This document shows positions 32,701 to 62,960 of a stretch of 64,000 nt of DNA, piece by piece. The position numbers and the translations under genes are program-made. The number at the start of each line of letters is the position of its first letter. Positions within the stretch are counted from its first letter, which is position 1. Below the pieces are notes generated by a model that searched no databases, was not told the origin of the DNA, and saw only the letters and a list, made by a program, of their open reading frames with translations. Source of the stretch: Oryzias latipes (taxonomy: Eukaryota; Chordata; Actinopteri; Beloniformes; Adrianichthyidae); contig NC_019859.2 in assembly GCF_002234675.1 (NCBI RefSeq), forward strand, positions 4,805,240 to 4,869,239, read 5' to 3'.

Positions 32701-33104
32701 CGCGCGCAGCTGCGGAACAGCTCGTGACACACCTTCGATGACGTAGACTTTAGGTCAGGCCACAAAGTTCACGAGACAAACCCGAACGGAAGGGCTTATT
32801 TAACTTTAAAAAAATCATTCCTCGACGACAAAAGGTAAGTGTAAGTGTTCTTCCTCCCTTTTCACGTTAATCCTTACGGATATTTATGCTTTAATTCTGG
32901 TGACGTCAAGCCGAAAGTAAAGGTCGCTGTTTTGTTTACTTGTCAAAATTTTATCTAATATTTGATTATTAGGTGTCAGACCAACGACTTTAAATATGCT
33001 TTTTGATTAAATTGTAATTATGGGGGAATCAAAACCTGCTGGTTTAACTTTGACTTAAGTTTCGTTTCTGTCGCAGATTTGTCGCAACTCTTGCAGCAGT
33101 GTTC
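32700..33104 (+). promoter_or_regulatory. trim25: trim25 promoter, 5'UTR exon and 5'UTR intron
   Basis: A strong donor (AAAAG then GTAAGT) at 32834/32835 and an acceptor ending TCGCAG at 33076 define a likely 242-base intron in the 5'UTR; a second acceptor ends TTGCAG at 33096. A CRE-like TGACGTAG at 32739 and a GC-rich CGCGCGCAGC stretch precede the presumed start site. An imperfect ISRE-like TTTCGTTTC lies at 33060. Confidence 0.5.
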
Positions 33105-36100
33105 ATGATGGCGGAGGAGGCCGACTTTCCCCTGTGCGCTCTGGAGGAGGAGCTGACCTGCTGCATCTGCCTGAGCCCCTTCGACTGTCCGGTCACCATC
33201 CCCTGCGGACACAACTTCTGCCAGGACTGCCTGCTCGCCACCTGGGAGGACGCCAACTTCAGCTGCCCTCAGTGTCGGACCAGCTTCCCGTCCAGGCCAG
33301 AGCTGCAGAAGAACACGGTCCTCAGCTCCGTGGTGGAGGCCTTCAAGCTGAAGTCCTCCAAGAACAGCTCAGCCATCCCGACCGAGCAGGAGAGCAAAGC
33401 TGAGGAGCAGGAGAGCAAAGCTGAGGAGAAGCATGTGGTCCTCTGCGACGCATGTATGGAGGCAGAGGCCTCCAGGACCTGCCTCACCTGCATGGCCTCC
33501 TACTGCGAGGAGCACCTGCGGCCTCACCGGGACAACCCCATTTTCCGCGTCCACAAGCTGAGCGAGCCAGTCGGAAACCTGATGGAGCACATCTGCTCCG
33601 ACCACCACAAGCTGATGGAGCTCTACTGTACAAACCACGACCGTCTGATCTGCAGCTCCTGCCTCCAGCAGGCCCACAAAGGCTGCTCCTTCACCTCCCC
33701 TGAGGAGCAGAGGAGCCTGAAGGAGGTAGCTGTCCCAGTACACAGTATTAGACTTTTACAACTTTGTGGCAAATATGTATTTGTTTGCCCTGATCATCTT
33801 TTGATCCCAGTGGTCTTTTGGTAATGATGATGCCGTTTTTAGCCCAAATCATTTTGTAGGACATAGTTCCTGCAGAGCAACAGGAGTTTATTAAAAAGTT
33901 GCGGGCAGGAGGAGCAGATTCTGAAGATTCTTGGTTAAAGCTTATTTTTGTTTCAGACTAGAAAACATCATCAAATGTCCAACCATTCCTCTGTCTTCAG
34001 GCTGACCTGAAGACCAAGTTGGAGCTCCTGGATGGAAAGATCACAAAGAACGAGACTATTCTCTCTCAAATGACGGTCATGCAAGTCAAGCTGAAGGTAT
34101 TGCAGTAGTGGAGGTCTAGAACACCTCTGGGTCTTTTAGACCGTCATGCTCTCCCTCCCTCCCTCCCTCCAGGACTCGGCCACCAGCAGGAAGAAGACCA
34201 TAGCGGCTGAGTATCAGCAGGTGAGAGACATGCTGACTCGAGAGGAGAGCGAGGCCTCCAACGCGCTGGACCGAGAGGTGGAGAGCGGTCAGATGAAAAT
34301 CCGAACCCTGATGAAGAAGTTCTCTGAGAATGTCGAAAACATGAAGAAAGCCAAAGGGGACATCTGCCGTCTGCTGGGACAGTCCCAAACGCAGAGCTTT
34401 CTGCAGGTAGGACGGCCGCTGACTAGTGTGTTCACCTAGAACTAGAGTATGCAGAGTAGAGCCCTGTGACGTGGTTTTCGTGTCTGCATTGAGCCTCTTG
34501 GACAATTTAGCATTTAACATCCCCTTTATTTTGTTATTTGACCTTTTTATTTATCAAGGCAAACCAGAAAACAAAATCTTATTTTCAACCGTGGCCTGGC
34601 AGAAGGCATCAAGATGACTTTGAGAAGCTTTTCTCTGGAAAAGCTTGATGGGATGAATTGATTTGATGGATGTTATTGACGTTCATATTCTTAATTTTTC
34701 GCAGCTGTTTTTTTTCTGCAATTGAGTTTTGGGCCAGTTTACAAAACAAACAAAAGCTTTTTATTTTATTTTCAATTACGACTTTAAAAACATGTAAATT
34801 TACAAGAAATAACACCAAAGTTGTCTGTTTATGGGAGCCTAGCTTGAAGATGAGCCTTTTGTGAAGCTTTATTTCCGGATAGGTTTCAAAAACAAAGAAG
34901 TTGTGAACCTTTTGGCGACTCAAAATCAGATTAATGTTAGTGTAGCCGGCTTTCTGGGATTTTGTGTCGGTAAAGTGGAGTTTCATATCTAAAACACGGA
35001 GCTCAGAGACACGTTTGGCTGAAGAGGACCAATACTTTATCCTGCCCTGTTCATTCACATACCCAGAAGTCCATCTGTCACCATGAACCTGTCACGTGCA
35101 GAAGAAACACCAAATATACAAAACACCATATAAACAGTTTATTCTGATCGTTGGTCACTGCTGCGCTGGCTTTGCGTCGTTTGTAGACGGTGTGGCGCTC
35201 CAGAGAAAGCTTTGGAGCGCGAAGAGGACCGGTCGCCTGCTCCGCCCGTGCAAAGCAAGTCTCTGAGCAGAGCAGCCGCACTCGTAGCTTCGTGTTTGCA
35301 GCAGGGGTTAGGGTCCTGAGAAACCGTGTAAACAATCCTGTGAATTCATGTCTCCAATCGTGTCCAGACAAAATAAAGGCTGACGTTAGTTCCACATATT
35401 TACGTTCAGTCAAGATGCACATTGCGGCCTTGACCACATGGATTTTAAATGCATCCACGGCTAAATGTTGTTGCTGGCACTTATTAGCCTAACCCTTCTT
35501 TCGGCTCCGTTCCGCCAAGAAAAAAGGCACAGAGTTAAAAAAAAAAGTACGAGCGAACAAGCACGTAATAATAATCATAATAATGATAAAATCACGTTTA
35601 GAAGATCATCTCACTCCACGCTGCAGGTTTGTTTGTTTACAACAGAAATCAATATTTCCTCTTCTGTGGTCGTTTCCGGTATTTTGGAGAGTCCTGCACG
35701 TCCAAATGATTTGTTCCGACCAAAAGTGTGGCGTATGTAAACGTTTGTTATAATCGCATAAGGTTTTTCTGGGACCATGTACACAGTTCAATTCTAATTC
35801 GATCTTTGATCCACTAGTGGTGTCTCACCTGGTTTTATGGCTCCACACCTTCATAAAAAAAAGCTCTTTTAGATGTTAGAAATCTCACCCAGCAGTGTGT
35901 CTGTGATTACAATGAGGTGCATCATGATCCACCCTCTGTCCTGCAGACGTCATTCACACTCCCCCAAGCTGTGAATTTTGAGCCCTACACGCCTCGGGTC
36001 ACCTTGGACTCCAGCAAAGTGATGGCGGCAGAGATTTTTCCTGCTGTGCTGAAGAAACACCTGACGGAAATGTTTGGACATCCTGTTGCAGCGCGGATAG

Positions 36101-39100
36101 AGCTGCTCAAACCGGGTCAGTCTTCAGCTGCGCTGACGGGACTTTTTAAATCCTTTTTAAAAATGTTGTTGGTGAATTCTGTTCAATTTGATCCCAGCGG
36201 TAGCCACGGTCTTTCTTCAAGCTGGTGAGTATTTAGAAATGAAAGTATGGGACGGGTGACCGAATCTGCAAATTCACCCTTTATCATATTAAACTGTAAT
36301 TTTTTCCCCATCATTTTTATTAAAATCCACAAAATGAATTCTGTTAGATCCCACAATGATTTAGAAATGGAGAAATTCTTTATCAATATTTTCTGAAAAA
36401 ATAAAATGTGACTGGATCTTTAATTTTTTGCATGAGTATTGTTGATGATTGTCAGAAATTTAGTTTTTCGAAGACTTGTTTTTTGTACAAAATATTTCTT
36501 TCATTGGGTTTTCTGCAAAAATGGTCACTTCTTGTTTATCTTCACATTATATGATTAAAGTATGAAATGTTTAAAAGCCCCAAATCTATGAGATCAAATC
36601 TGAATAAGCTTAAAGTGAATGAAAAAAAATAATTTGAAAAAAAGACATGGCAAAATATGATTTATATCACAAAATTGCACATTAACCAAAATTTTGTACT
36701 TTTAAAAAATTTAATTTGAATTTGGCAAGTTTTAGCTGTAAAGTTAGGCTATTTTTTTAAGTTGTCAGTATTTCTTCGAATTTAAGTTATTTTTCCTAAA
36801 TTTATTTATTTATTTTTTTAAGTTAGTGTACTTTCTAGTTTAAAACTTATTTTAATTTTTTTTATTTTCAAATAAACATGAGTGTTTTTTTAAATGTACA
36901 ATCTGGTTTTTCATTCATTTTAAGAAAATCCTGATTTGACCCCGTAGTAATCACGAGAAACCATTAAAAATCGTTCAGTTGTGAAGGTTAAACATGAGAC
37001 AAAATACTTCTTTTTTTTTGTCCAAATAATGCATTAAATCAAAATTTCTTAACCAACCCCACAGCCCAGTCATCATGTGGATTTTCCAATGGTTAATGTT
37101 TTATTTTGAAAGAAATCTTAAGCACTATTATTTGTTGTAATGTGGAAAAAAACAAAAACTGTAAGCTTAGGAGTAAAAAAACAATTACATGTATTTCCCT
37201 CGTATTAAATTTTAAATAAAGCATAAAAATATACATAACTGTTGCAAAACAAAACATGCTGTCAAATACGGATGTTTTATTCATTTATATTTAGCAATCC
37301 TGTTTGATTTGGAGGACCTTTTAGTCTATCGACTGTTGAGGGATAATAAAATACTGACGCATGGATTTGTTGTATTTTTTTTTTAGGTGCAGGAGCAGCT
37401 TCTTCTTTATCTTTGACCCCAAAAACATCTCAGCAATTGGGTAACCTATTAAAATAAATAATATTAAATAATTGAGGAATTTTACTCATTTATAATAAAA
37501 TGATTTATAATAACTCACAAGAAAAATGAAACAAAATTGTGAAATTTTATCTAAAAGGATTACTTTAAATGCTCTATTTTTTGTCTTTTTTTAGAGCCTG
37601 GAACTCCCATCCAAACTTCTCTGCCTAAACCAGCCTCAAAGAAAAGATCAAGTAAGAATTGTTTGACTTTAAAAATGTAAGTTAGCATTATTAAATATTT
37701 ACTGATCTTACAGTGCTGTAGCAAAGCAGGGTAGGGGACTTTCTGACATGTTCTTGTTGCATTTTTCTGACGTGGGAGGACCAACATTGAGAAAATTAAT
37801 GTCAAAGTTGCATTTCTGAGAATTTTTTTTTTGATTCAAATCGCTGTAAATCAGGAGCAGACGCAAAAATACGGTTTGAAAAAGATTTATATTTGTATTT
37901 GTGACTAGGCGGGCCACAAGCGCCCTGTTCTTAGCTACTGGGAGGAAAGGGGGGTGGGCAGGGATGCCCCACATACATGGTCTCACCCACAACTGAGAGG
38001 CAAATTCTACTGAACTACTGCCACTCTGCAGAAACTGTCCTAGAAAACGTCATAGGTTTATTTTTGGCTAAAAACGTCATCTTTAAAAGACCACTGGGAA
38101 CTCTTCTACAAAAGATCGAATGATGATCGGCGTTTGACTTTAAACTCCAGACCCTTTGCTTGGATTCTGCCTTAAATAATCCTTTTTACTCATTTTGATT
38201 CATGCCTGTATTTATTTTTTTCCCCTTTTTTAGAAGGCACCAAGTCTTCCGATGCAAGCGGATTGACAAAACGAGAGCTGTCCAAATCCATGGAACACCT
38301 TTTGGACCTGAAAGTACACAAACTAAAGGAGAAAATATCAGGTAGACAACGGGGTTTATTGTCTCGGGTTATAATCTAATCTGGTGGCAGTTCCACACCA
38401 CAGTCTGGGCCAGAATTTCACCTCACAAACAGAACCAGAACTCATTAAAACATCATTTTCAGCCTTTTATATAGCATTGCCTTACATTACTCAGCTGAGT
38501 TTGGATTTCCTGTACACTATTCTGCTATCTTTTGTATTTTCTTTGTACAATGCAGGTTAGTCAGCTTCAACAACGTTATTCGTTATTCTTTTCTAAAATA
38601 ATCTAATGTAGTTTTGAGCTTTGAAATGCAATAAAAGAGCAAGGGGGCAGATGTGGCAAATAGTGGGAATTTTATTACAAATACCAATTTTTTTAATTTA
38701 AACTGCTGTTGTGCCCAATTGAGCTGTTTTTTCTTTTCTCTCCCTCTCAGTTTTGAATGCAGAAATTGCCAAAGACATCGCTTCAGCTGAAAAAAGAAGT
38801 GAGCTCATGAAGTGTAAGTCTTGCAGTGGGGCAAACAACTGTTTGCAAGTTGTCCCACTTCCACAGAGATGCCAGAGGTCTGTAGTGTTAATGACAGAAA
38901 CATTTCAACAGTTGGAGACAGAATGTAGAAGTCCAGGAAATCATATTGTATATGGCTGCACGATATGAGGAAAACTCGCAATATGTGATTTTGGTGATAA
39001 ACATATTGCGATAAGAATATAACTTGCGGTAAATAAACAAAGAGTAAAACAACCAAAAACATCATTCCCATATAATTGCAACAGTTTAAAAATTATACTC

Positions 39101-40792
39101 CAAATGACCCTCGTCAACAGAGAAGGGGAACATCTAACATAATAGGACTCCATCTGATTGGTCAAATGCATAAATTGATTTATTGGATTCGTTAAATACT
39201 TCAAGCTGCCATAAGCTTGTTTTAGCACATTTAAGGTAACCATTTATTGCAATTTTTGCTGTCTTTTGCGATATGCGTATTGCACAGCTTGGTACTGCGA
39301 TAGCGATAAATTTGCGGTATATTGTGCAGGCCTAATATTGTGTAATTTTTAAACAATTTAAGTAGTATAGCAATAATACTAGCGCATGTCTGCCGGCTAC
39401 AGTTTGAAGAGGCTCGGTGCGAAATGTCAAAGCGGTACAAACCTCGCTCCAGACTTTATCTTTCACAGTTCTATTGCGATAAATGAAAGACTTTGTGTCG
39501 TGGAATTCCAGCCGGGCACGAACCGCAATGATTAATTTCTCCTCCATGATTGCTTTTCCGAACATTCGGGACCTCCGTGAATTAAAGCGGTCGTCGTTGA
39601 TTTTTCACTACCAAATCCAGGAGTCGGCCTGTTTTAACTTGCAACGCGTTTTGAACGTAGAGTCGTAAAAAGGCACGTAGCTACACGTCAACGTGACGGT
39701 TTCAAATGCTGAAGCCCGAACGTTTTCATTGGAAGTGGCATTCAAGCGCCCACCTACAATGAAACAGTAACTTGTATAATCCCAATTCATTTTATAGTTT
39801 TACATAGTGTGGAAACACTATAAATGTAGCAAAGACATGTGACCAGACAGTGTGGGAGAATGATCTAATTATGTTCTGAATGAACTTTCTGAAACTACAA
39901 TGTGAATGGATTTACCAATAATTCTTGTTTACTTTTTTTGTACATATATTTTCACTTGATTATCTTGTAAAAAAAATGCAAGGAATCTGGAAAACTCCAC
40001 CTGCACTGTTCAGCACCAGGTATTTGTCTCTGAGTCACACTGGTTGAAGTTTTGATCGACCTTAGGTCAGAGAATTGGATCGTTCACTTGAACCAATATC
40101 GACTACGAAGGGTGTAGTCGGCCACAAATTGTATGAATCAAATCGTGTCAAAATGAATCGCTAGAGACCAAACTCAGCTTTTTTAGTGGGACAACTTTCA
40201 GAACGGATGTTGTGTTCATTACATTTATCCTGTTTTTTTTTTTTTTGTGTCATTCCTTCTAGTTGGCGTTGGTTTCACTTTTGATCCAAGAACAGCCCAC
40301 AAACGCATCATCCTCACCGAAGACTTCACCAAAGCGTCTGTCTCAGATGAGCCCACCAACTACCCAGAATGCCCCGAGCGCTTTGCGCTTTGCTCCCAGG
40401 TACTCTCCTCCAGAGGCTTTATCAGAGGTCGCCACTACTGGGAGTTCCGACTGAGCTGCAACAACTTCATTGGCGTCGGATTGGCTTACGGCAGCCTTGA
40501 CCGCAAAGGCCCCGCCAGTCGTCTGGGACGCAACAACATGTCCTGGTGTTTGGAGTGGTTCAACGTTAAGCTGTCCGCCTGGCACAGCAGTGTGGAGGTG
40601 GTGCTGGTCAACCCGAGTCCCAAGCGCGTAGGCGTGCTGTTGGATTGTGAGGAGGGCAGGGCGACCTTCTACAACGTGGCAGACAGGGCGTATCCCTTAC
40701 ACTCCTTCTCCATACCCTGCGTGGAGGCCGTCTATCCGGCTGTTTGGGCTTTCTCGAGTGGCTCCAGTGTTACTCTGTGCAAGCTGCAGTAA
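33105..40792 (+). CDS. trim25: E3 ubiquitin/ISG15 ligase TRIM25, complete, 9 coding exons
   Basis: Exons: 33105-33725, 34001-34096, 34173-34406, 35947-36115, 37387-37440, 37595-37651, 38234-38341, 38751-38813, 40263-40792; phases agree, 1932 nt, 643 aa (human TRIM25 630). The RING finger (C19-C57, C3HC4, with PCGHNFCQDC) is followed by B-box-like zinc motifs around 118-150 and 168-205, coiled coil about 205-320, a serine/lysine-rich linker about 373-467 and a B30.2/SPRY domain 468-643. The SPRY carries RGRHYWEFRLSCNNFIGVGL and SRLGRNNMSWCLEWFN, very close to mammalian TRIM25. TRIM25 adds K63-linked ubiquitin in RIG-I signalling and binds RNA through linker and SPRY. The ATG at 33105 is used (a second in-frame ATG follows at 33108); the paralogue at 43852 has the same start. 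Position next to dgke supports orthology. Confidence 0.95.
33785..33912 (-). mobile_element. TTAA-family fragment in trim25 intron 1 (copy 8)
   Basis: Inverted 3'-end fragment: GATCATCTTTTGATCCCAGTGG, then GTTTTTAGCCCAAATCA and GACATAGTTCCTGCAGAGC. Confidence 0.7.
34407..35946 (+). other. trim25 intron 3
   Basis: 1.5 kb without recognised exon. The block 35150-35420 is GC-richer and may be an old repeat, but I cannot classify it. Confidence 0.5.
36116..37386 (+). other. trim25 intron 4
   Basis: Very AT-rich, with many T-runs; nothing else recognised. Confidence 0.6.
37652..38233 (+). other. trim25 intron 6
   Basis: Mostly a shortened TTAA-family copy (37735-38146). Confidence 0.65.
37735..38146 (+). 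mobile_element. TTAA-family transposon, copy 9 (internal deletion)
   Basis: ACATGTTCTTGTTGCATTTTT near the start and GATGATCGGCGTTTGACTTTAA at the end; the exon-like centre is missing. Confidence 0.75.
38342..38750 (+). other. trim25 intron 7
   Basis: 409 bases; no repeat or exon recognised. Confidence 0.6.
38951..39334. mobile_element. hAT-like nonautonomous element, short copy, with 8-bp target duplication
   Basis: Ends TATGGCTGCACGATAT and ATATTGTGCAGGCCTA are inverted repeats. They are flanked by ATATTGTA (38943-38950) and ATATTGTG (39335-39342), an 8-bp duplication with one mismatch, as expected for hAT. The interior matches 10942-11624. Confidence 0.8.
39436..39547 (-). pseudogene. 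MADF-domain fragment, Harbinger/PIF-type transposon protein
   Basis: From the ATG at 39547 the minus strand reads MEEKLIIAVRARLEFHDT, continues through SFIYRNRTVKDKVWSEV, and then runs into unrelated sequence. This is the N-terminal half of a MADF (Myb/SANT-like) DNA-binding domain, as carried by the accessory protein of PIF/Harbinger transposons and by many fish multigene families. It lies inside trim25 intron 8. No transposase is visible nearby, so it is a relic. A domesticated short gene is possible but not supported. Confidence 0.6.
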
Positions 40793-43499: not shown

Positions 43500-43851
43500 T
43501 AAATAGAGCCTTCTGTAAATGTTTACGCAGCGCGGAAGGATTTAATTCTCTTTACACCGCAGTCCGGGTGAATCCTCGATTCTGATTGGCTGCTGGGTGT
43601 ACATTAAAAAGTGAAAAACTGACCAGACGGTTCAGGCTTCCGGTAATTTGTGTTGACTCGTTATCGGGCATTATTCCCTTTGTACGCTGTTGAAAAAAAA
43701 CTCTCTTCTTTATTTCGAAGTCAAATTGGTGCCGCTAAACGCCTCGTGACGTTTGTTTGGAGGCGGTTTCCAAACAAGCCGTTAGGTTTCGTTTCTCCCT
43801 CCCTCCCTTGAAAGTGCGTCATCGTCTCTCCGAACAGCAGCAGCAGTTTTC
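43500..43851 (+). promoter_or_regulatory. Upstream region of the trim25 paralogue
   Basis: Local GC rise before the ATG; an ATTGG box-like element (GATTGGCTG) at 43584; and an ISRE-like TTTCGTTTCT at 43787, the same string as upstream of trim25 (33060). No 5'UTR intron is required by the sequence. Confidence 0.35.
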
Positions 43852-46800
43852 ATGATGGCGGAGGAGGCCGACTTTTCCCTGTGCGCTCTGGAGGAGGAGC
43901 TGACCTGCTGCATCTGCCTGAGCCCCTTCGACTGTCCGGTCACCATCCCCTGCGGACACAACTTCTGCCAGGACTGCCTGCTCGCCACCTGGGAGGACGC
44001 CAACTTCAGCTGCCCTCAGTGTCGGACCAGCTTCCCGTCCAGGCCAGAGCTGCAGAAGAACACGGTCCTCAGCTCCGTGGTGGAGGCCTTCAAGCTGAAG
44101 TCCTCCAAGAACAGCTCAGCCATCCCGACCGAGCAGGAGAGCAAAGCTGAGGAGCAGAGCAAAGCTGAGGAGAAGCATGTGGTCCTCTGCGACACATGTA
44201 TGGAGGCAGAGGCCTCCAGGACCTGCCTCACCTGCATGGCCTCCTACTGCGAGGAGCACCTGCGGCCTCACCGGGAGAACCCCACCTTCCGCGTCCACCA
44301 GCTGATCGATCCTGTGGGGGATCTGTCGGAGCACATCTGCTCCGAACACCACAAGCTGATGGAGCATTTCTGCACGGAGCACGGACGTCTGATCTGCAGC
44401 TCCTGCCTCCAGCAGGTCCACAAATCCTGCTCCTTCTCCTCTCCTGAGGAGCAGAGGGGCCTGAAGGAGGTAAGTCTTCCTCCACAGCTCCCATCTGCCA
44501 GCCCGAAGTCAAGTGTCTGATGAAGCCCTCCTTCATCAGTTAAGATGCAATCCCCAGAGCCCCATCCCATCGAAAAGCTCCATAATCATTTCAGTATTTC
44601 AGGAGGGTAAATACTATAACAATAAGAAATTTACAACTGAGCAACAGAAAACTGTGGCTCCTTTCTGTTACTTTTCTGACTTGTATAGATTTTTATGTAC
44701 TTTAAAAAGCTTGTTGTGAACGTGTTCGTATCAAATTCCTGAACATTTGTTGTCAAAAAAATGAAGAAAAAAAGTTTTTCCAAGTTTTACAATCTGAGTC
44801 CCATATTCCTCCTCCAGCAAAATGAGTTGGTAAACAAAACTATGGTTAAAAAAAAAAAAAAGCTGAACAAACAAAAATGTTTCAGTGGCTCCCTTACTGA
44901 CCTGTAGACTTTGTTCCCACACAACAAACATGATTGGTTCTTTTTGTAGTTGTCACAGTACAATAACAGGCAAGAATTGTACTTCCTGATTGAGACCGAT
45001 TTAAAGTCAAATGAACTGGAGCCAAGTCAGTTCAGGGAGTGATCGCTGCATGGCTTGATTCAAGCAATTCATCCCCAGCATGCTGACATACTGGTCTGGG
45101 ATTACATTTAGGGTGTATTCAGACGGGAAAAGTCTGTTAATCCGGTCTGAGAACGCTAAATTTAGTCCGGCTCTAGTCATGAACGTTGCATTTGGACTGT
45201 CGGACTGTCAGCCGGAGAGTTCTGTTCTGGGCCAAAGCTTGTAAACAAAACCATGTGACTAAACATCTGTTTAGTCGTTGGCCAGGAATTGCGAGGGTGG
45301 GGCAAAGTGACGAGAGGAAGAATACTGGATAATGTCTCAACGTTGGTACGACACTTTGTACTTTGGTACGGCGGAGGCATGCTGCAAGGCGGTTACTGAG
45401 GTCCAGTGTTTTTATTTAGACTGCTGAAACTCAGAGCAAACTGGACCTCAGTCTGATTGGAAACGAACCGTTGAAAGATGGGTCAGAGAGCGGTTCCTGG
45501 TCCTGGACCAGGATGTACCGAGACTGAAAATTTGGTCCAGATTATCGAGAGAAACAAATTCTAGCTCAGTTTAATGTGTCCAGTCTGAGTGGACCCCGGG
45601 GGAGGATCGGTGAAAGTTTTTTTTTTTTTTTTTTTTTGTAATTGCCTTCAAAATAATATTAATAACCTTTTGATTGACAGGTGGTCACGTGACCAAACGC
45701 TCTGTTGGTGATGGGTTTCTACTCAAATCGTTCTTGGTTCTTTTTTTGTTTCTGCAGAACGACTTCAGAGCAAAGTTGAGTTTGCTGAACGAGAAGATCG
45801 AGAGGACGGATTCGGTTGTTCTCCAGATAACTGACATGCAGAACAAGCTTAAGGTAACCTTCAGACAAATTCGAGTCAAATGTCCCTACAGCAGCAGGAC
45901 ACATGGATGGGCGTCTTCATTTGGACCATTTTTCCAGGGGGCTGCCAACAGCAGAAAGACGGCGCTGTCGGCTGCGTACCAACAACTGAGGGACGTGCTG
46001 GCTCAAGATGAGCGCGCTGCTCTGCACGAGGTGGACTGCGAGCTGGAGAAGGGTCAGATGAAGCTTCAGCACTTCGCCAAGAGGTTCTCCGAGAACAACG
46101 AGAAGATGAGGACCGCCAGGGAGGACATCAACGAACTGCTGCGTCGGTCCCAGACCACAGCCTTTCTGCAGGTGGAGTTTGTGCTGGAAGGAAACTGCAC
46201 AGAGGAGCAGAACAACGACAAAACTGATGCTGGTTTTTATTTCATGATTGTTTCCAGGCCTCCTTTGAACTTCCAAAGGTCATAAAGTTTGACCCTTATG
46301 CGCCTCGGATCAACCTGGATTCTGAAAGAGTGACAGCAGCACAGAGCTTTGCTGCTGACCTGAAGGGGAGTCTGATGGAGATTCTGTCTCAGCCCTTTGA
46401 GGCCAGACCACCTCTTCTTGGATCAGGTAACCGACTGACTTTCTCTGTTTCTGCACGTCTTGTGTGGAATTGTTCTTTCTCTTGTCGTGACTTCTTCACC
46501 CCTTTTGATGTATATAAATGTGCGAGTAAGCAGCGGAATGTCTGACAAGTCATAAACTGTTGAATGTATATATTTTCCAGGCGATGCTGAAACATCTGGG
46601 TCAGAATCGGAACCTGAAAGTACCGGGGATGAGCCATCGAGTACGTCCTCCTTTCATGAAGAGTCTTCCGGGTTGGGGTTGACGCCATGGTGGCAGCAAA
46701 CGGCTGCAATTATCTACTTAATTTATTGCTGAAAAAAGCCAAATCATTGCAAAAAAGTGGCAACCGCTGAACCTTTTCAACTGGAGCTACGTTCACCCCC

Positions 46801-49800
46801 CCCCTCTGCCAAGCGTGTTAAATCGGCCCCTTCCAATGAAAAGTGGGATTCTGTGTTCAAAGATCTCATCTTCACCCCCAGCTGTGCAGTTTTTACAACC
46901 GTTTGAGCTCTTGCTGCAAGTTGCAGCCATTGAACGCGTGTTGAACGGAAAACCAGATTGAACTTTGACCAATCGGAGACTCCGATTTAGACCCTGTGTT
47001 TGAATGGCCACATGCTTTATACATAGAGGCTCTACGTCTGAATTCCTTCACTATATAGTTCACCAGTTTGTAGTGCTGTCCGAATCTACGACTCCATAGA
47101 AGTTTCCCAGAAGTGTCTGCGAAAAACCAGTGTCCATCAATGGTCACTAGATTGGCGAATATAGACCACAATGCATTGCGTTTGAACAATTTTTGCCCCC
47201 AAAAAGTTTTTTTTTGTAAATAAACCAACATTATTATCTTCATAACTCAGTGATTCATAAATGTTCATCATAAAACATTCGTATCAATGAGATTTTCACT
47301 TTGTGAAATCGATGACGTCATATTTGCAGTTTAAAAAAACAAAGTAGTGGACATGGTGTCCAAATTCCTTTTTAAAATCCAGGGCACTACATCGTCCCAC
47401 ACTGTATAGTTTTCTAGTCGTTGGGGAGTAGGGTGGGAATCAGACACAGCCAGAGACAGAGATCAGTCTTTAAAGTATGCGTAGTTACGTGCGATTGTGG
47501 GAGTTTTGAAGGTAAAAGCCCGACTTACACGTTTACATCCTGTCATTGGAAGTGGGCGGAGTGAACGTAGCTTTAGAGGGGAAGTTCTCGGTCGCCGGCA
47601 TATGTTGATCAGATTTGCTCTTTAATGTTTCAAGTCAATCAAAAGTCATTATCTAACAATTCGAACGGCTTTAGGTTGTTGTAAACGCTGAAGATCTTTG
47701 CTTAAAGTGTTTCGTTTGCTTGATTTTAAAGCCTTTTCAGCACCAGAGCGACCTCAACAGGAAGGAGGTCATCCCGGCCTCAACCATCCCGCCCCTCCGG
47801 CCGTCCACACCATTTACCAGCAGGTTCCATTCCCCATTTACATGCAGCCGCGGCCGTCATGGAATAATGCGCAACACAATCGGTTTGGTCCCTCTAGCTT
47901 TTCAACAGGCCGTCAAAGTGAGTAAAAGACGGCCGCTCCGGCATCTTCACTCATGATTCTACCCCCACAGGCTGCCGGGAATTGTGTTTTTTTTCTTCTA
48001 AAATCCATAAACACAACAGTTGGTCACATCAAATGATGACTTTTAGTAAACAAAAGGATCAAACTGACCACTTGCTTCTAAAAAAAAAGACCTCAGGAGT
48101 CAAACCAATTGGTGGCATGGACTGCATCCCTTTGACTCCATGCATGACATTTTCCCAAAACGCTGCTCCAACTCTGGATTTACAGAGGATGAAATGTTTG
48201 ATTTTTAATTAACAATAAGAACTATGAGGAATTTTCGAATCAAAAATTGCATTTTAAAAAAAGATTTCATGATAAATGGTCCACATTTATATTGCAAAGC
48301 CAATTTACAATGAAATGAAAGATTAAATTTATCCTATTTGGACTAAAATAGAGTTTAGAACAGCAGACAAGGTACAAAAATGACGAAGTGAAGATCCTGA
48401 AATTTTGAATGCACTTTTTTGAAGCTACGACCCCTTTATTTATTTATTAATTTATTTTTACAAAAGTTCATATTTATCTATATTCTCATTTTCGTTTGAT
48501 TTTTTTTTATTTATTTTTTTTAATGGTTCTGTGGCTTTGAACTGTTATGCAGTGGTTTTTTTTTTTGTTTTTTACTTCCTTATTGCATGAAGTAAACAGA
48601 TTTTTCAGCAGACTACTGGCCACTCGTAACACTCGCTGGTGTAAGAAACGGCTTTATAACAAATCCAGTTTCATGCTGAGCGTTTGGTTTTTCGCAGAGC
48701 TGCTCTCCATGAAGTGTGAAATGGTTCGTTAGTGGGCTTCGGCCTGCTGGTAAAAGCAAACTAGCAAAATCTCCACAGTTGCTCCTTTGCCCAAGAAAAT
48801 TAAACTGCATCCACTGCTACCTGGAATAAATAGTTTTTGGGAACACTATACGCCTCATTTACTGCAAAAAAATCCTCAATTTGATCATTTACTAAGTTCA
48901 ATAAGTTATTTTAATTCTCAGATGTGCTTTTTGATTCACTTAACCTGATGGTTAAAGAACCATTCTAACATGTTTTCTGATTATGGAGGGTGGATGGAAA
49001 AAGAAAATTAAGCTTAAAACTGCTTTCTTGTTTTTTTTTTACTTCTTTTTTTTTTGGAATCGTTGGGAATCTGGAACAGGGGAAAATATAATATTTGAAA
49101 AAAGAGCTTATTTGTTACTGAGAACAAACGGAAGCATCCGCTTGTAGACGAATGGATCACGTCTTCGTTTTCCTCGTCCGAGTTGGAATCTGGCTCAAAG
49201 CCGGGCGGCTGGATAGCCCTGGTATTGCTCACCGTTTTTGTTGCAACTGTAATTTTGGGTTGGAGTTGTGAGGGGCTGTAAACTAGCGGTAGAGCACGTG
49301 AACAGATGACTCTCAGCCATAGGTGGCGGGATGGGGGGTGAGGTTGCTCCGTGACAACAGTCCCCGCCCACAACTCGGAGATGAATTTCTACTGAGCTGC
49401 TGCTGCTATGCGGGAACTATGTCCTAAAGATTTTTGATTTTTGGCTTAAAACGGCAAAATCATGATTAAAAAAATCCTACTGGGAATATAAAAATGGACG
49501 CTTTCACAATAGAAAAGGTCTAATTTGAGAATTTTCACTCGCTTTCAGACCCTCATGGAGAAAAGTTTAAGAAACCTTCATCAGGAAGGAAGAATAAGAC
49601 CACCAGCAATCCAGCTCCAAAGGCTCATCAAAACAGGGGAGGAGACAGGAGCCAGCCTCCGAAAAATAAAGGTAAGTCCTTCTCTGTTTGGGGTCTGAAC
49701 TGAAAAAATGTCACATTTAGCTCTCAATGGTTTAAATCAGTCGTTTTCTGCACAAACATTTCTGTTTTTAACCGAGACACTCTGTGGCACAGCCAGTCCT

Positions 49801-51670
49801 TTTATGAGGCTAATTCAGGATTCACACTGTTCTTTGTGGCTTCCTTATAAGGTAATATTATTATTGTGGTAAATTTCCTGGTTTCCTAAAGTATAAGTTG
49901 ATTCCAGCGCCAGCAAAAGTGTTAAATTGAGGACCCCAAAAAAAAAAAAAACCCAGTTTACCGTTCATCTTTAATATTTTGTAGGATTTCCAACATATTA
50001 AATTTCCACTCAAGCATATTTTGAGAAAAGGCAAAAGCTAACTTCGATTATTTCAATGTACCGGTAGTTTATTTTGTGAGACTGGCAGAAGTTTCATTTT
50101 GGAAAACTACCGCATTCTGTTCACCACATCTGTCTGTCGTGACACGTCACGTGACCGTAAGCAGCTGTTCGGACCGCCAAGTTAGTCAACCTCTCCGCTT
50201 AAAAGCAACCAAACATATTTAGAAAGTTTCTCTGGGGAGAAAAGTGTCGGTGAGGAAATGGAAGAAGAGCCTCCGACTCCAAAGGAACAGCTATTTACGG
50301 ACAAAACCGGGAGTTTTCCTCCAAATTCAGATTTATTGAGACAGTTGTTCCCGCGGACCAGAAGCTGCTCGCTGCAGCGACTGACGTTTTAACGTTTCAC
50401 ACACACACATAATAAAGTTGCAGACCAGTGGATTTATGTTTATTATTTTATCCTGCTTTATTTATCCATCATTAAATGTTGGACATGGCTGAAGTTGGCG
50501 TCTGGTTGTTAGTACCCACTCTGTCGTGAAAGGGAAAAATCTTCATCTTAAAGTATAAAGCAGCGGCAAAACGTTTGACAGAGAATAAATATTAAAAGTT
50601 GCTGATTTGTGGAAACTTGTAAAAGTGACATTTAGGAATTTTCTACAGCAAGGGTGACTTAAGCAGACATCTGTTAAGAAACTTTAGCAGAGAAAATTTT
50701 CCTCTGTAAAAAAAAAAAAAAAAATACTCAGTTAATTAAGATTTATGTATAAAAAAAATTAAGATCAATCCTTTTGCCCTGAAAGATGAGTGGAGTCTGT
50801 GTTGAGTTCTCAGTGTTATAATGGTATTCAATGAAATAAAACCTGTAATGTTGTCTTTCTTGAATATCTACAACCTCTGCAAATCAAAAACTTTGTTTCA
50901 GTGAATCTTTGTCATCTGTAAAATATATATATACGTTTTCAGATTTTTATAAACTCAATTTCTTGTGGTAGCTTTTTTATTCTAGGTTTCTCAAAAACCG
51001 GAAGCCTAAAAACAATTTAGCGCCAACCTCCGCTCTGAAATGTTTTTGACATGAAACCGGTCCGTGGTCTGAAAACGGTTGGAGACCGCTGTTTTGAGCC
51101 ATTTTAAAAAGGTTCCCAGTAGACGTTTATCTATAAGTAGGTTATAAAAATAGTTAATTAGAAAATCACCTCTGAGCTGTGGGTGTGATTGTTTGCCCGG
51201 AGCAACCCCGCCCCTTTCCCCATCACCCATAAGTGAGCGTTTCTCGGTTAAGGCGTTCTCCCGCTAGCTTATAGCCCCTCACAGTGCCAACCTAGCATTA
51301 GCGGTGCAACAAAAATGGCGAGCGGTATTGGAGCTATCCAGCCGCACAGTTTTGAGCCAGATTCCAGCTCAGACGAGACAAATAAGGAAAGACATTCATG
51401 GATCTAGTCGTCTACAAGCGATCAAGGATGATCTTCAAAGCAACATGCATATCCAATAAGACTAGGACACCGTTCTTCTACTTTTAACGATTGTAGATAA
51501 GCTGAAAGGACCGTTTCTCTGCAGGAGAGGACAGAAAAGCCCCCAGTGCTTCAGGAGGTCAGAAACCAGCCGCTGCAGGACCGAAATCCACCAAAGACGG
51601 AAAACCCGGCAGCCGTCCTCATTCAGCCAAACCGCCGGGACAACAGCAGCACCATAAGAAGAACAAGTAG
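43852..51670 (+). CDS. TRIM25-like protein lacking B30.2/SPRY, with a basic tail; 8 coding exons
   Basis: Exons: 43852-44469, 45758-45853, 45938-46171, 46258-46426, 46581-46640, 47732-47917, 49549-49671, 51525-51670. All are GT/AG, phases agree, 1632 nt, 543 aa. The first four exons copy trim25 exactly in size (one codon shorter in exon 1): RING C3HC4 at 19-57, B-boxes, coiled coil to about 316, then DPYAPRINLDSE. The remaining 171 residues replace linker and SPRY: an acidic stretch (GSESEPESTGDEPS), a proline/aromatic part (HTIYQQVPFPIYMQPRPSW) and a K/G/P-rich tail (EKFKKPSSGRKNK ... QQQHHKKNK). The tail is intact, with AATAAA 119 bases after the stop, so this looks like a real gene rather than decay. 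It should keep E2 binding and multimerisation but lose SPRY-based target recognition. The tail suggests RNA binding (inference). It lies 3 kb downstream of trim25 in the same direction. Confidence 0.88.
44470..45757 (+). other. Intron 1 of the trim25 paralogue
   Basis: Contains a probable TIR repeat at about 45110-45600 and a T homopolymer at 45617-45640. Confidence 0.5.
45110..45600. repeat. Probable interspersed repeat (GTGTATTCAGACGG type)
   Basis: Starts GGGTGTATTCAGACGGGAAAAG, ends GTCCAGTCTGAGTGGACCCC, and carries GTCCGG/GTCTGAGAACGC phrases that recur in fish interspersed repeats. This is from memory and the ends are not firm. Confidence 0.35.
46641..47731 (+). other. Intron 5 of the trim25 paralogue
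   Basis: Mostly a TIR element at 46785-47572. Confidence 0.55.
46785..47572. mobile_element. Nonautonomous TIR element (AGCTACGTTCAC ends)
   Basis: The first 12 bases AGCTACGTTCAC are repeated inverted at 47561-47572. Both ends also share CCTTCCAATGA-like sequence further in. The terminal phrases resemble those beside the MADF fragment at 39660-39790, suggesting a Harbinger-type relative. Confidence 0.6.
47918..49548 (+). other. Intron 6 of the trim25 paralogue
   Basis: AT-rich; TTAA-family copy 10 fills 48960-49515, next to the following exon. Confidence 0.6.
48960..49515 (+). mobile_element. TTAA-family nonautonomous transposon, copy 10
   Basis: Long copy with the minus-strand exon-like frame (TRAIQPPGFEPDSNSDEENED at about 49150-49225) still open. 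It ends about 33 bases before the exon at 49549. Confidence 0.75.
49672..51524 (+). other. Intron 7 of the trim25 paralogue
   Basis: Contains TTAA-family copy 11 near its 3' end; the rest is AT-rich and unclassified. Confidence 0.55.
51095..51425 (-). mobile_element. TTAA-family transposon, copy 11 (inverted)
   Basis: On the plus strand an ATG-started frame reads MASGIGAIQPHSFEPDSSSDE at about 51315-51380, the best-preserved start of the exon-like module. The 5' terminus is missing. Confidence 0.75.
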
Positions 51671-51788
51671 AAGCTGTGGAACCGTCAACGTCACACTTTC
51701 CACTTAAAATGTTTAAGGCTATCTGCACAAATGGGATCTTAAAATATACTGTTGAACTTGTAAAATGTAATTCACTTTCCTTGTATTA

Positions 51789-51794
51789 AATAAA
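51789..51794 (+). terminator. Poly(A) signal of the trim25 paralogue
   Basis: AATAAA in TATTAAATAAAATG, 119 bases after the stop at 51670. Confidence 0.7.
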
Positions 51795-58668: not shown

Positions 58669-61600
58669 GCGTCTGCCTCACCCTGACAGTGTGCGCCTGG
58701 CCCAGCCGCACAGGGTTGGCCATCTTGACCTGGATCTGTGCGCAGTGGAAGGAGCCGAACACGCCCACCACCTCCAGCAAACCATCGTCCAGCCTGCAGG
58801 GTCACATGGCACTGCTGCTGACTCCCCGTTACCACGGTAACCAAACATCTCACAAGGGGGAAATCAATGCACAGGGGCTGTTTTTCCTCCACCCCCCCCC
58901 CCCACCCCCCATTTAATATTATTTTTAAATATATTTAAACGGTAAGTATTTACAGGTTTCTATCGATGATTAGCAAAACTAAATGTCAAAACTCCCCCAG
59001 TTTTTGCTTTAGTATAAATGTGCAGATCTTACCGAGTGGGGGGGCAGGGTTCATCTCCCATCCCCTCCCAGAGTCTGCAGCCTCCCCCCCAGTAGCCGAT
59101 GTTACAGACGATGATGCCCTCCAGACTGGGCAGCTCCACCCGTTCTCCATCCAGCTCCAGCTGATGCAGAAAAAACACTGTTGTTGTCGTTTTATGAGGC
59201 GGCACAAAAAGCGAGAAGCCGAGGCGCCGTCCGTACAACCGCTCCAACATTGAACACAGCGTGCAGGTTTCTATACGTACACATCGCCGTCTGCATGGTC
59301 AGGCCTCCACTTCCTGTGAAAAGTCTGAGTTCAGTAGCTACTCTAGCTCCTCAGACCGTTTTCAGGCTCTACGTTTAAAACGTGCCGCCGTCGAACACGT
59401 CAGCCGGTCCAGATTGACCAATCAGGGGCTCAGAATGGGGAGTAATGTTTCGGTGGCTAACTGTCAAGTTTAAAATCTCAAATTTGAAAAGAGCAAACTA
59501 TCTGGTGTCACGTTTTTCAAAATAAAGGTCAACTGACATGAGGGTTATCCGCCATCGCAAAAGACTCTAGCAATGAAGCCAACTGTTCTGCTCTGTCATA
59601 ATATAATCAGAATTAAAAGACCGTCGGGAACGCTTTGAAAATAGATCAAAAGATGATCGGGGAGGGACTTTAAATACGAAAGAAAAGTTCCTGTCAGTCT
59701 GAGAAAAGTGTAGAAAGCATTAATGAAAGACCGCTTTGCAGATTTCGTTTAAAGCGGGTTATTTTTAGAAGGCAACTCCCCTTTTCTTTTTTCTAATTCA
59801 TCTGTGGGCTTTTCTCCTTTTTTCTCTGGCCTTTCATTATAGAAGAGTACACGTTTAAATCCATCAATCATTTAGGATGGTAGAGATCAAAGGTGATACA
59901 TACATCCATACAATCCGTCAAGAATTTCAATAAACTTTAAACGTCAAACTAAAACAGAAGTGTACCTCAATCCTCTTATCCAGGTCTTTACATTCCTGCA
60001 CCAAACAATCTCTGGTGCCGTAGAGGAAGTACACGGCCTGAGGGGAGGGGAAAAACCAACAGCCACGGGTTTGCATTCAAATGGACAGACGCGGGCGGTG
60101 GGGGGGGGTTTGGGAATTCAAACGAAGCTCTCCCGACCTTATTTATGATGCGGCTGGAGAAGAAGGAGGGCGTTTTCTCGCGGTGCGCGTGGAAGTTCAG
60201 CGCCATCAGGGCGTCGGGGCCCACGGAGAAGTAGTTGTTCATGGACAGGACCTGAGGCAGATGCACAGACAGGTCAGCACAAAGGCACAAGACACCGAAA
60301 CCGGCACCAACACAGGAAGCAGACCTTTGGTTTACGAAAGTAGACTCCCTTTGAAGCCACCTGAACTTTCCACCTAGAAAGGAAAAAAAAACTCTGATTC
60401 ACAGCTTAAGAAAAGGAAATTGGAGTTTTTAAATAAAGAGGTTTGGGTTTTTTTCAGACCCCACCTGTCCATCTGCACCACTTCAGCATCCAGGATGTTG
60501 CGGAGAACCTGCTCCACGGGAATCTCCCCGGCGTACCCGGCCCCCCACCCCAACGTGTTGGAGAGGTCGTTCCCGGTTCCCAAAGGCAGGATGGTCACTC
60601 TGGGGATAAACTGGTCTTGAGCCTGACGACAAACCCAACGGTAAATCCATGGAAACCTGAGGTCAGAGAAGAAGAGCCCTCACCTCCCCTCCCCTCCTCA
60701 CCTTCAGCTTCATGGCATCGATGGCATCCAGAACCCACCCAACGGTGCCGTCCCCCCCGCACACCAGCACCTGCACCCTGCCGGGGGGCAGGAGGTTGCA
60801 CAGCTGCAGGGCTTTGGTTGGCGGCAGCACGGAGAGGTCAAACACCTGCCAAAGAGAAGGAACCTGAGCCCAGCGAAGGAAACGGGAAGAGCTGGCCTCA
60901 GGCGGAGGAGCTGACCTGAACGGGGTTGAGGACGGTGCGAAACTCTCCCAGCAGGGCCTCCCCCATGTTGTTACCGCTGCGCGTGTTGGCCAAGACCAGG
61001 ATGGGATTCCAGCCACCGCCGCAGGTGGCGCCCAGCTGCACAAACGGTGTTTTAGCCACAGTTTGAGGCACCGCAGGGGGCCTGCATGCGCCGCTCTGGA
61101 CTCACCTTGCTGAACTCGTCTGGGTGGCGGCGGCGGAGCTTGCTGACCTGGTAGAGGTAGTGGGGGGGGATGATGAGGCTGCGGAATTCGCCCAAGTCGC
61201 AAACGTCCGCAGTGGAAAGGCTGTCCATGCAGTCATCGTGAACGGTCGTCTGACACCAGACGCACCTGAAGGGGAAGAGGTTAGACGACCCACACCAAAC
61301 GGCAACTGTCAAGCACAGTGGTGGCAGAGTGGTGGTATGGGGTTCTGCAGCTACAGCCCTTCCTTACTGGGGTGGCCCTTAAAAACAAACACATCCCATC
61401 TGACCACCACATGTGAACGACTGTAAATGTGTATTAAAGGCTAAATTGGGCCTCATATAAACCAAAAAAGAAAAAGCAATACCGTGCCTTTTTGTTTTAA
61501 ATCACCTGTATTAAGCCCCTCCTCACCTGCATGAATCCCCTCCTCACCTGCGTGAATCCCCTCCTCACCTGTCTGAATCCTTTCCTCACCTGTCTGAATC

Positions 61601-62608
61601 CCCTCCTCACCTGTCTGAATCCCCTCCTCACCTGTCTGAATCCCCTCCTCACCTGCGTGAATCCCCTCCTCACCTGTCTAAATCCCCTCCTCAGCTGCGT
61701 GAATCCCCTCCTCACCTGCGTGAATCCCCTCCTCACCTGCAGGAATCCTCCCCTCACCTGCCCAAATCCCTTCCTCACCTGTCTGAATCCCCTCCTCACC
61801 TGTGTGAATCCCCTCCTCACCTGTCTGAATCCCCTCCTCACCTGCCCGAATCCCCTCCTCACCTGTCTGAATCCCCTCCTCACCTGTCTGAATCCCATCC
61901 TCACCTGTCTTAATCCCCTCCTCACCTGTCTAAATCCCCTCCTCACCTGTCTGAATCCCCTCCTCACCTGTCTGAATCCTCCCCTCACCTGCCCAAATCC
62001 CTTCCTCACCTGTCTGAATCCCCTCCTCACCTGCGTGAATCCCCTCCTCACCTGTCTGAATCCCCTCCTCACCTGTCTAAATCCCCTCCTCACCTGTCTG
62101 AATCCCCTCCTCACCTGTCTGAATCCCCTCCTCACCTGTTTGAATCCCCTCCTCACCTGTGGTCGCAGAGCTTGGGCTGCGTCCCGCACTGCTGCTTGCA
62201 CACTGCGCAGTAGCTGGCCAGCGGCACGTTCCCCCGGACCCAGCGGTGCTCCGCGGACCCTCCGGGGCCACACGGGGCCATGATCTCTTTGCACGGCATG
62301 CTGCGGTCCGCCCCGCGCAGGCACTGCTCGTCCACGCACACGCCGCAGCACTCGCAGAAGGCGCCGTGCAGGATGTGCTGGGCGCAGACGCAGCAGTAGG
62401 TGGGCTTGTTGAACAGGTCCGTGTAGTGCCAGCCGTGCTTGCTCTTCCGAAAGAACTCCTCCATGGAGCTTTTCCGCTTGGAGCGCCGCGCGCTGCACCA
62501 CAGAACGAAGGCGACCGGAACCACGACGGCCAGGGAGGTCCAGAGCAGCAGCGGCCATTCCCGCCGGGAGCCGCAGTCGCCCTGCGCCTCTGCCCCGTCT
62601 GAGCTCAT
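56683..62608 (-). CDS. dgke: Diacylglycerol kinase epsilon, complete, 11 coding exons
   Basis: Minus-strand exons in coding order: 62608-62157, 61265-61106, 61035-60916, 60845-60702, 60622-60465, 60373-60325, 60251-60138, 60037-59966, 59160-59033, 58793-58682, 56904-56683; phases agree, 1731 nt, 576 aa (human 567). An N-terminal hydrophobic segment (about 18-38) is the membrane anchor of this isoform. Two C1 zinc fingers follow (about 58-110 and 124-175, the second split by intron 1 at an Arg codon). The catalytic domain has CGGDGTVGW (G274-T278 as the GGDGT nucleotide motif) and [16 protein letters not shown]; the accessory domain has [23 protein letters not shown] and [18 protein letters not shown]. 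The C-terminus ends in an acidic and proline-rich tail. It phosphorylates diacylglycerol, preferring arachidonoyl species, to phosphatidic acid. It is adjacent to trim25, as in mammals. Confidence 0.95.
57096..58440. mobile_element. Outer hAT-like element (GTCTGCAACC ends)
   Basis: Begins CAGCGGTCTGCAACCTGGG with GCGGAGCCACATGTGGC following, and ends GAAGGTTGCAGACCCCT, inverted. It is interrupted by the element at 57345-57934. No transposase frame. Confidence 0.6.
57345..57934. mobile_element. Inner hAT-like MITE (CAGTGTTTTTCAACC ends)
   Basis: CAGTGTTTTTCAACC at the left is exactly inverted as GGTTGAAAAACACTG at the right. Flanks CGTTAGAC and GGTTAGAG share six central bases, compatible with an 8-bp hAT duplication. 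Confidence 0.85.
58630..58672 (-). repeat. CA/GT microsatellite next to the dgke exon 10 donor
   Basis: About 17 GT units on the plus strand; read as CA on the dgke strand it starts about 10 bases inside the intron after exon 10. Confidence 0.95.
59161..59965 (-). other. dgke intron 8
   Basis: Contains a 3' TTAA-family fragment and an unclassified possible repeat at 59250-59480 (GACCAATCAGGGGCT). Confidence 0.55.
59596..59676 (+). mobile_element. TTAA-family 3' fragment (copy 14)
   Basis: AAAAGACCGTCGGGAACGCTTTGAAAATAG-type sequence ending GATCGGGGAGGGACTTTAA. Confidence 0.7.
61503..62160 (-). repeat. 21-bp minisatellite made of 5' splice-site units, dgke intron 1
   Basis: About 31 tandem units of 21 bp (plus strand CCCCTCCTCACCTGTCTGAAT; dgke strand ATTCAGACAGGTGAGGAGG then GG). 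The array begins exactly at the exon 1 donor and fills about three quarters of the 891-base intron. The octamer CAGGTGAG, identical to the real donor context, occurs 30 times including the real site. One unit has CAGCTGAG instead and the last one has CAGGTGAT. Confidence 0.97.
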
Positions 62609-62960
62609 CCCTCTGGCGGGCTTCAGGCGGCGGACACGAGGGAAACCGAGGAAGAGGGCGGTGTGGACGGAACGCGCTGGCGGGAAGGAACGCCGCGTTT
62701 CTCCGGGACGGACATGTTCACGAACACAAACGGGATTCTGACATCACTTGAAAACGGACATATAACGCGAGAAATAAACGGCGCTCCTAAATGCGTACAG
62801 CTAGCTTGGTACCAGCAAAGAGTCTATACACGTCAAGATGATTCACGCTCAAGAGGGAGCATGCGCACTGCGTCCAAACGGAAGAAGCCCGATTCCGGTT
62901 TCCCCCTTCAAAGTAAAAGACCAAAACCAACATAAAAAATAAAAACCAGCAATAACTTAC
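62609..62960 (-). promoter_or_regulatory. dgke: dgke promoter region
   Basis: CpG-rich sequence directly upstream of the dgke ATG, falling off to AT-rich DNA beyond about 62960. No TATA box is convincing. Confidence 0.45.

Follow-up and report, generated by a model that had tools for sequence, protein, structure and literature searches.

What can a TRIM25 paralogue do once it has no SPRY domain, and is the tail that it appears to carry instead a real protein sequence? These questions are raised by a 64-kb stretch of medaka DNA (hereafter the window; C1:4805240-4869239 of an assembly of 25 contigs and 734,051,031 bases, in which all genome searches were made), where a full-length TRIM25 gene (gene 1) is followed in tandem by a SPRY-less paralogue (gene 2; 43852-51670, plus strand) and then by a diacylglycerol kinase gene on the minus strand. 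The best explanation, to which we give moderate confidence, is that TRIM25 was duplicated in tandem long ago and that one copy, gene 2, became a class-V TRIM ligase whose disordered, basic tail directs it to its targets.

The first half of gene 2 is readily recognized as TRIM25. From its ATG at 43852, exon 1 (43852..44469) encodes the RING, B-box 1 and B-box 2, exons 2 (45758..45853) and 3 (45938..46171) encode the coiled coil, and exon 4 (46258..46426) covers the end of the coiled coil and the start of the linker; the latter three exons share 14 of 32, 38 of 78 and 26 of 56 residues, respectively, with gene 1. As the original prediction had it, exons 1-4 match those of the neighbor in size and phase: they measure 618, 96, 234 and 169 nucleotides (nt) against 621, 96, 234 and 169 nt in gene 1, with identical phases and a single 3-nt difference in exon 1. 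In the PDB, the gene 2 product matches full-length human TRIM25 best (E 1.3e-59, over residues 9-387). Its RING has the complete C3HC4 ligand pattern, and both B-boxes align to those of human TRIM25, the second of them with a gap of one residue. The Pfam scores are modest, with 23.5 and 20.8 bits for the B-boxes (curated cut-offs 27 and 24.1) and 19.9 bits (E 7e-4) for TRIM_CC (curated cut-off 30). Exons 2-4 alone nonetheless match coiled-coil structures of human TRIM25 (E 1.6e-4), whereas the corresponding exons of gene 1 (34001-36115) matched no TRIM25 structure at E 1, so that the coiled coil of the full-length copy seems to be the more diverged of the two. For this reason gene 2 does not have the appearance of a decaying relic.

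The domain content beyond this core sets the two genes apart. Like human TRIM25 and gene 1, gene 2 encodes a RING, two B-boxes, a coiled coil and a lysine-rich stretch past the coiled coil, that is, a TRIM/RBCC (RING, B-box, coiled coil) module that is nearest to TRIM25 among known structures. Unlike them, it lacks the C-terminal PRY/SPRY that characterizes TRIM25 as a class IV TRIM, and is predicted to end in a tail of some 168 residues in which no similarity to the gene 1 linker could be detected. Pfam found no PRY/SPRY in the product, and no second SPRY was detected in the window, where the best tblastn match of a SPRY query outside its own exon had an E of 0.95; the claimed absence of a B30.2/SPRY domain is thus borne out. 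Because Pfam is also empty in the tail (E up to 1), the arrangement is that of a class V TRIM, in which the RBCC is followed by no known domain. In sum, the evidence supports describing gene 2 as a SPRY-less tandem paralogue of TRIM25 that retains the RING, B-boxes and coiled coil and has a predicted basic tail at its C terminus.

The two copies have diverged very unevenly. Over exons 2-4, nonsynonymous divergence (dN) is 0.39 and synonymous divergence (dS) 1.29, a value near saturation and part of a pairwise comparison that is silent on which copy is constrained; these exons have changed less between the copies at amino-acid than at synonymous sites, and because of the high dS the duplication looks old. 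Across aligned codons 1-139, by contrast, there are no synonymous differences in 88.3 sites, two nonsynonymous differences and one 3-nt indel, so that the first two thirds of the RING/B-box exon are synonymously identical, a feature that had gone unmentioned in the earlier account of the locus. Since this identity lies beside the strongly diverged exons 2-4, the simplest reading is a recent gene conversion over the RING and B-box 1. The putative tract (43840..44268, plus strand, paired with approximately 33093-33524 of gene 1; edges approximate) aligns with 2 mismatches in 417 nt plus the 3-nt indel, dS is 0.27 in the following 67 codons, similarity fades about 12 nt upstream of the ATG, and local matches within intron 1 are 17 nt or shorter. 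A shared 15-nt match further upstream was set aside, because in gene 1 it resembles the pyrimidine tract of a splice acceptor.

Downstream of exon 4, four predicted plus-strand exons make up the tail: exon 5 (46581..46640) provides an acidic, Ser/Glu-rich start, exon 6 (47741..47917) is rich in Pro, Gln and His with an aromatic patch, exon 7 (49549..49671) is basic, and exon 8 (51525..51670) encodes a basic C terminus and the stop codon. All have GT/AG sites, and the frame stays open down to the TAG at 51668-51670; overlapping poly(A) signals, ATTAAA and AATAAA, lie within 51785..51794, 115-119 nt past the stop, in agreement with the intact stop and nearby poly(A) signal noted originally. The earlier figure of 171 tail residues is probably not exact. 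Three in-frame acceptors are available for exon 6, at 47741 (TTTTCAG, score -0.34), 47747 (about 2.7, from the difference between chains) and 47732 (TTAAAG, -1.87), and the start is probably 47741 or 47747, that is, 9 or 15 nt from the acceptor first proposed (47732), for a tail of 168 or 166 residues. Introns 6 and 7 also hold a pair of inverted-repeat arms (49168-49306 and 51244-51382; 139 nt, 77% complementary) that possibly belong to a dispersed repeat.

Whether these exons are coding is the point on which the case for a tail-aimed ligase turns, and the doubtful but serious alternative is that gene 2 is an RBCC-only relic, in which exons 1-4 represent a TRIM25 fragment, still functional or in decay, with some other 3′ end, and intronic sequence happens to read as some or all of exons 5-8. 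The original prediction held that canonical splice sites and consistent phases argue for a functional gene; taken by themselves, they are insufficient. Of 198 overlapping control windows of equal length, non-genic or antisense, 53 contain a four-exon chain that is just as good, and 6 of 500 dinucleotide shuffles reach the chain score of the tail. Because good chains are this common in controls, splice sites and phase are weak evidence for exons 5-8, and we rejected chain scoring as proof of the tail. A previous control set, in which 35 of 127 real windows reached the score, was replaced by the 198 windows because it covered real genes, and adding a GC-content term brought no improvement (69 of 198).

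Several other observations weigh against a coding tail and favor the chance reading. The codon usage of the tail is atypical, scoring -0.039 against 0.142 for the other open frame under a scoring trained on the two genes, and its third-position GC content is 0.46, compared with 0.78 in exons 1-4. The other frame is itself open through all four tail exons (46581-51670), with the better codon-usage score and a hydrophobic fraction of 0.25. The codon-position information of the tail is equalled or exceeded by 6 of the 85 distinct control chains derived from the 198 windows, of which the five listed are on the minus strand and include stretches opposite exons of both TRIM genes. Finally, the genome yielded no homologue of the tail outside its own exons, on which all four matches with E up to 10 fell, and no relative was confirmed in viral contigs, which were searched only with the 57-residue exon-6 part.

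The evidence on the other side comes from the composition of the predicted frame. When its bases were shuffled without creating stops, only 1 of 1000 versions matched its codon-position information (z 5.5), and T is nearly absent from codon position 2 in exons 5 (0 of 19 codons), 7 (1 of 40) and 8 (0 of 48), compared with 9 of 58 codons in exon 6 (counts calculated from fractions and codon numbers). The hydrophobic fraction of 0.078-0.079 is reached by none of 1000 shuffles and lies below all 85 control chains, whose minimum is 0.226. Among random concatenations of intron sequence, only 2 of 20000 were stop-free and 17 of 20000 had a codon-usage score as high. In addition, when the region downstream of exon 4 was searched for its best-scoring chain of four exons without the original model, the same exons were recovered except for the start of exon 6, placed at 47747, under a score threshold that excluded the acceptor at 47732. 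On balance, we consider the tail quite probably real.

The predicted tail has an acidic start, a net charge of +17 over its last 89 residues and 7.7% hydrophobic residues, and judging from this composition it is probably disordered. Its origin is less easily read. The original prediction held that a new tail had replaced both linker and SPRY, and the lack of sequence similarity agrees with this: 526 of 1000 shuffles score as well against the gene 1 linker, and 125 of 1000 as well against the SPRY. However, exons 5-7 are entered in phase 1 and have lengths divisible by three, as do the four linker exons of gene 1, and given this shared pattern it is just as possible that the linker diverged and the SPRY exon was lost. 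The tail looks new, while SPRY-less trim25 copies in fish are already known.

If gene 2 is indeed a class-V ligase with a basic tail, its product would dimerise in antiparallel fashion through its own coiled coil, and its RING, the same as that of TRIM25, would transfer ubiquitin or perhaps ISG15. The flexible basic tail would find targets in place of the SPRY, and its most likely ligand would be RNA or ribonucleoprotein. RNA is our leading guess, since mammalian TRIM25 is reported to bind it through a lysine-rich linker motif and the SPRY (PMC9253567). Gene 2 would most likely encode an E3 in its own right, with a part in antiviral or RNA regulation, a role as a RIG-I decoy being less likely, and the RNA-directed E3 put forward in the original prediction is possible. 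Two points weigh against this reading of gene 2: the lysine-rich 7K motif is reported not to be an independent RNA-binding element without the SPRY (PMC12115990), and no consensus for an interferon-stimulated response element (ISRE), a gamma-activated sequence (GAS) or a kB site occurs within 2 kb upstream of either ATG.

A different function, which we rate as improbable though worth weighing, is that the product of gene 2, lacking a SPRY, forms heterodimers with TRIM25 via the coiled coil and thereby dampens or redirects SPRY-dependent substrate recognition. The two proteins have the same RING after gene conversion, their coiled-coil exons are common in ancestry and length, and related TRIMs with similar central regions can reportedly heterodimerise (PMC12115990). 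Such pairing reportedly depends on similar central coiled coils (PMC12115990), however, and identity over exons 2-3 is only 52 of 110 residues, which leaves the proposed heterodimerisation with TRIM25 uncertain. The best known client of the SPRY, RIG-I, is also probably absent here. The genome search found four matches to a RIG-I-type C-terminal domain at only two loci, no more than MDA5 and LGP2 would account for, although this is taken as a count only and a diverged third locus could escape it; medaka is reported to be without RIG-I (PMC7582293). With only two such loci and this report, a role of gene 2 through RIG-I is unlikely, and the idea of regulation or decoy action on RIG-I is weakened further by the zebrafish protein, in which the SPRY is the part of TRIM25 reported to bind RIG-I (PMC6901795). 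Least credible of all is an alternative transcript that acquires a SPRY exon, either from a distant downstream site or through trans-splicing, the tail belonging to one isoform only: a review mentions fish TRIM25 isoforms or splice variants (PMC13030082), but the window contains no further SPRY and, among the 150 genome matches scored (of 173 candidates), those that follow are on a different contig or, on the same contig, more than 1.8 Mb distant, and none of them exceeds 43% identity.

The class-V reading of gene 2 finds parallels in other fish. Class-V TRIMs of zebrafish, trim25like included, are reported to have arisen by frequent loss of C-terminal domains (PMC3137616), and trim25like resembles gene 2, by description only, in being TRIM25-derived and having lost its C-terminal domain. 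Stickleback is described as having an extra TRIM25b together with TRIM25a and DGK on group XVI (PMC10300353), which, again compared by description only, recalls the tandem position of gene 2 beside a diacylglycerol kinase gene. An extra TRIM25b is also reported from lumpfish, where complete domains are ascribed to TRIM25a only, so that TRIM25b is incomplete by implication; poly(I:C) raises its expression, with a log2 fold change of 0.64 after 6 h and 0.82 after 24 h, and it is placed on a chromosome other than that of TRIM25a, though the two Ensembl numbers are close (PMC10300353). With zebrafish trim25like and lumpfish TRIM25b in print, a SPRY-less fish trim25 is a known kind of gene. The salmon ‘TRIM25b’ is not the same kind of copy, being, as reported, a homeolog on another chromosome (PMC12234341). 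Reported copy numbers of fish TRIM25 vary widely, from a single trim25 in teleosts according to an earlier paper (PMC2657112) to 54 copies counted in large yellow croaker (PMC4383535); pufferfish is reported to have no trim25 (PMC3137616). A medaka trim25 cDNA clone is listed and could derive from either copy (PMC4599741). Our literature search, with most subscription papers outside its reach, found no description of medaka gene 2, its tail or the conversion tract.

The upstream paralogue, gene 1 (33105-40792, plus strand), is a full TRIM25 with RING, B-boxes, coiled coil, linker and PRY/SPRY in nine exons: 33105-33725, 34001-34096 and 34173-34406 (exons 1-3), 35947-36115, 37387-37440 and 37595-37651 (exons 4-6), and 38234-38341, 38751-38813 and 40263-40792 (exons 7-9). 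Exon 9 encodes the SPRY, for which human TRIM25 is the closest PDB match (E 7.6e-58). The diacylglycerol kinase open frames (60663..62743, minus strand) contain C1 and DAGK_cat domains and serve as a synteny marker; the gene is DGKE by position, and DGK is reported to neighbor TRIM25 in fish (PMC10300353). This region also contains a 21-nt tandem repeat (61502-62160; 31.4 copies, 89% match).

A more far-reaching, and rather improbable, possibility is that the two genes form a modular pair, in which gene conversion would keep one catalytic head identical in two ligases whose dimerisation and targeting parts diverge, one aiming by its SPRY and the other by a disordered tail that binds RNA or forms condensates, so that fish without RIG-I would gain an RNA-guided ligase of the TRIM25 type. 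More broadly, gene 2 is a natural experiment on TRIM25 without a SPRY, in a laboratory fish reported to lack RIG-I. Its RING appears to have been kept identical by conversion while most else has diverged, and the gene could serve to test whether TRIM25-type ligases have RIG-I-independent, RNA-linked work.

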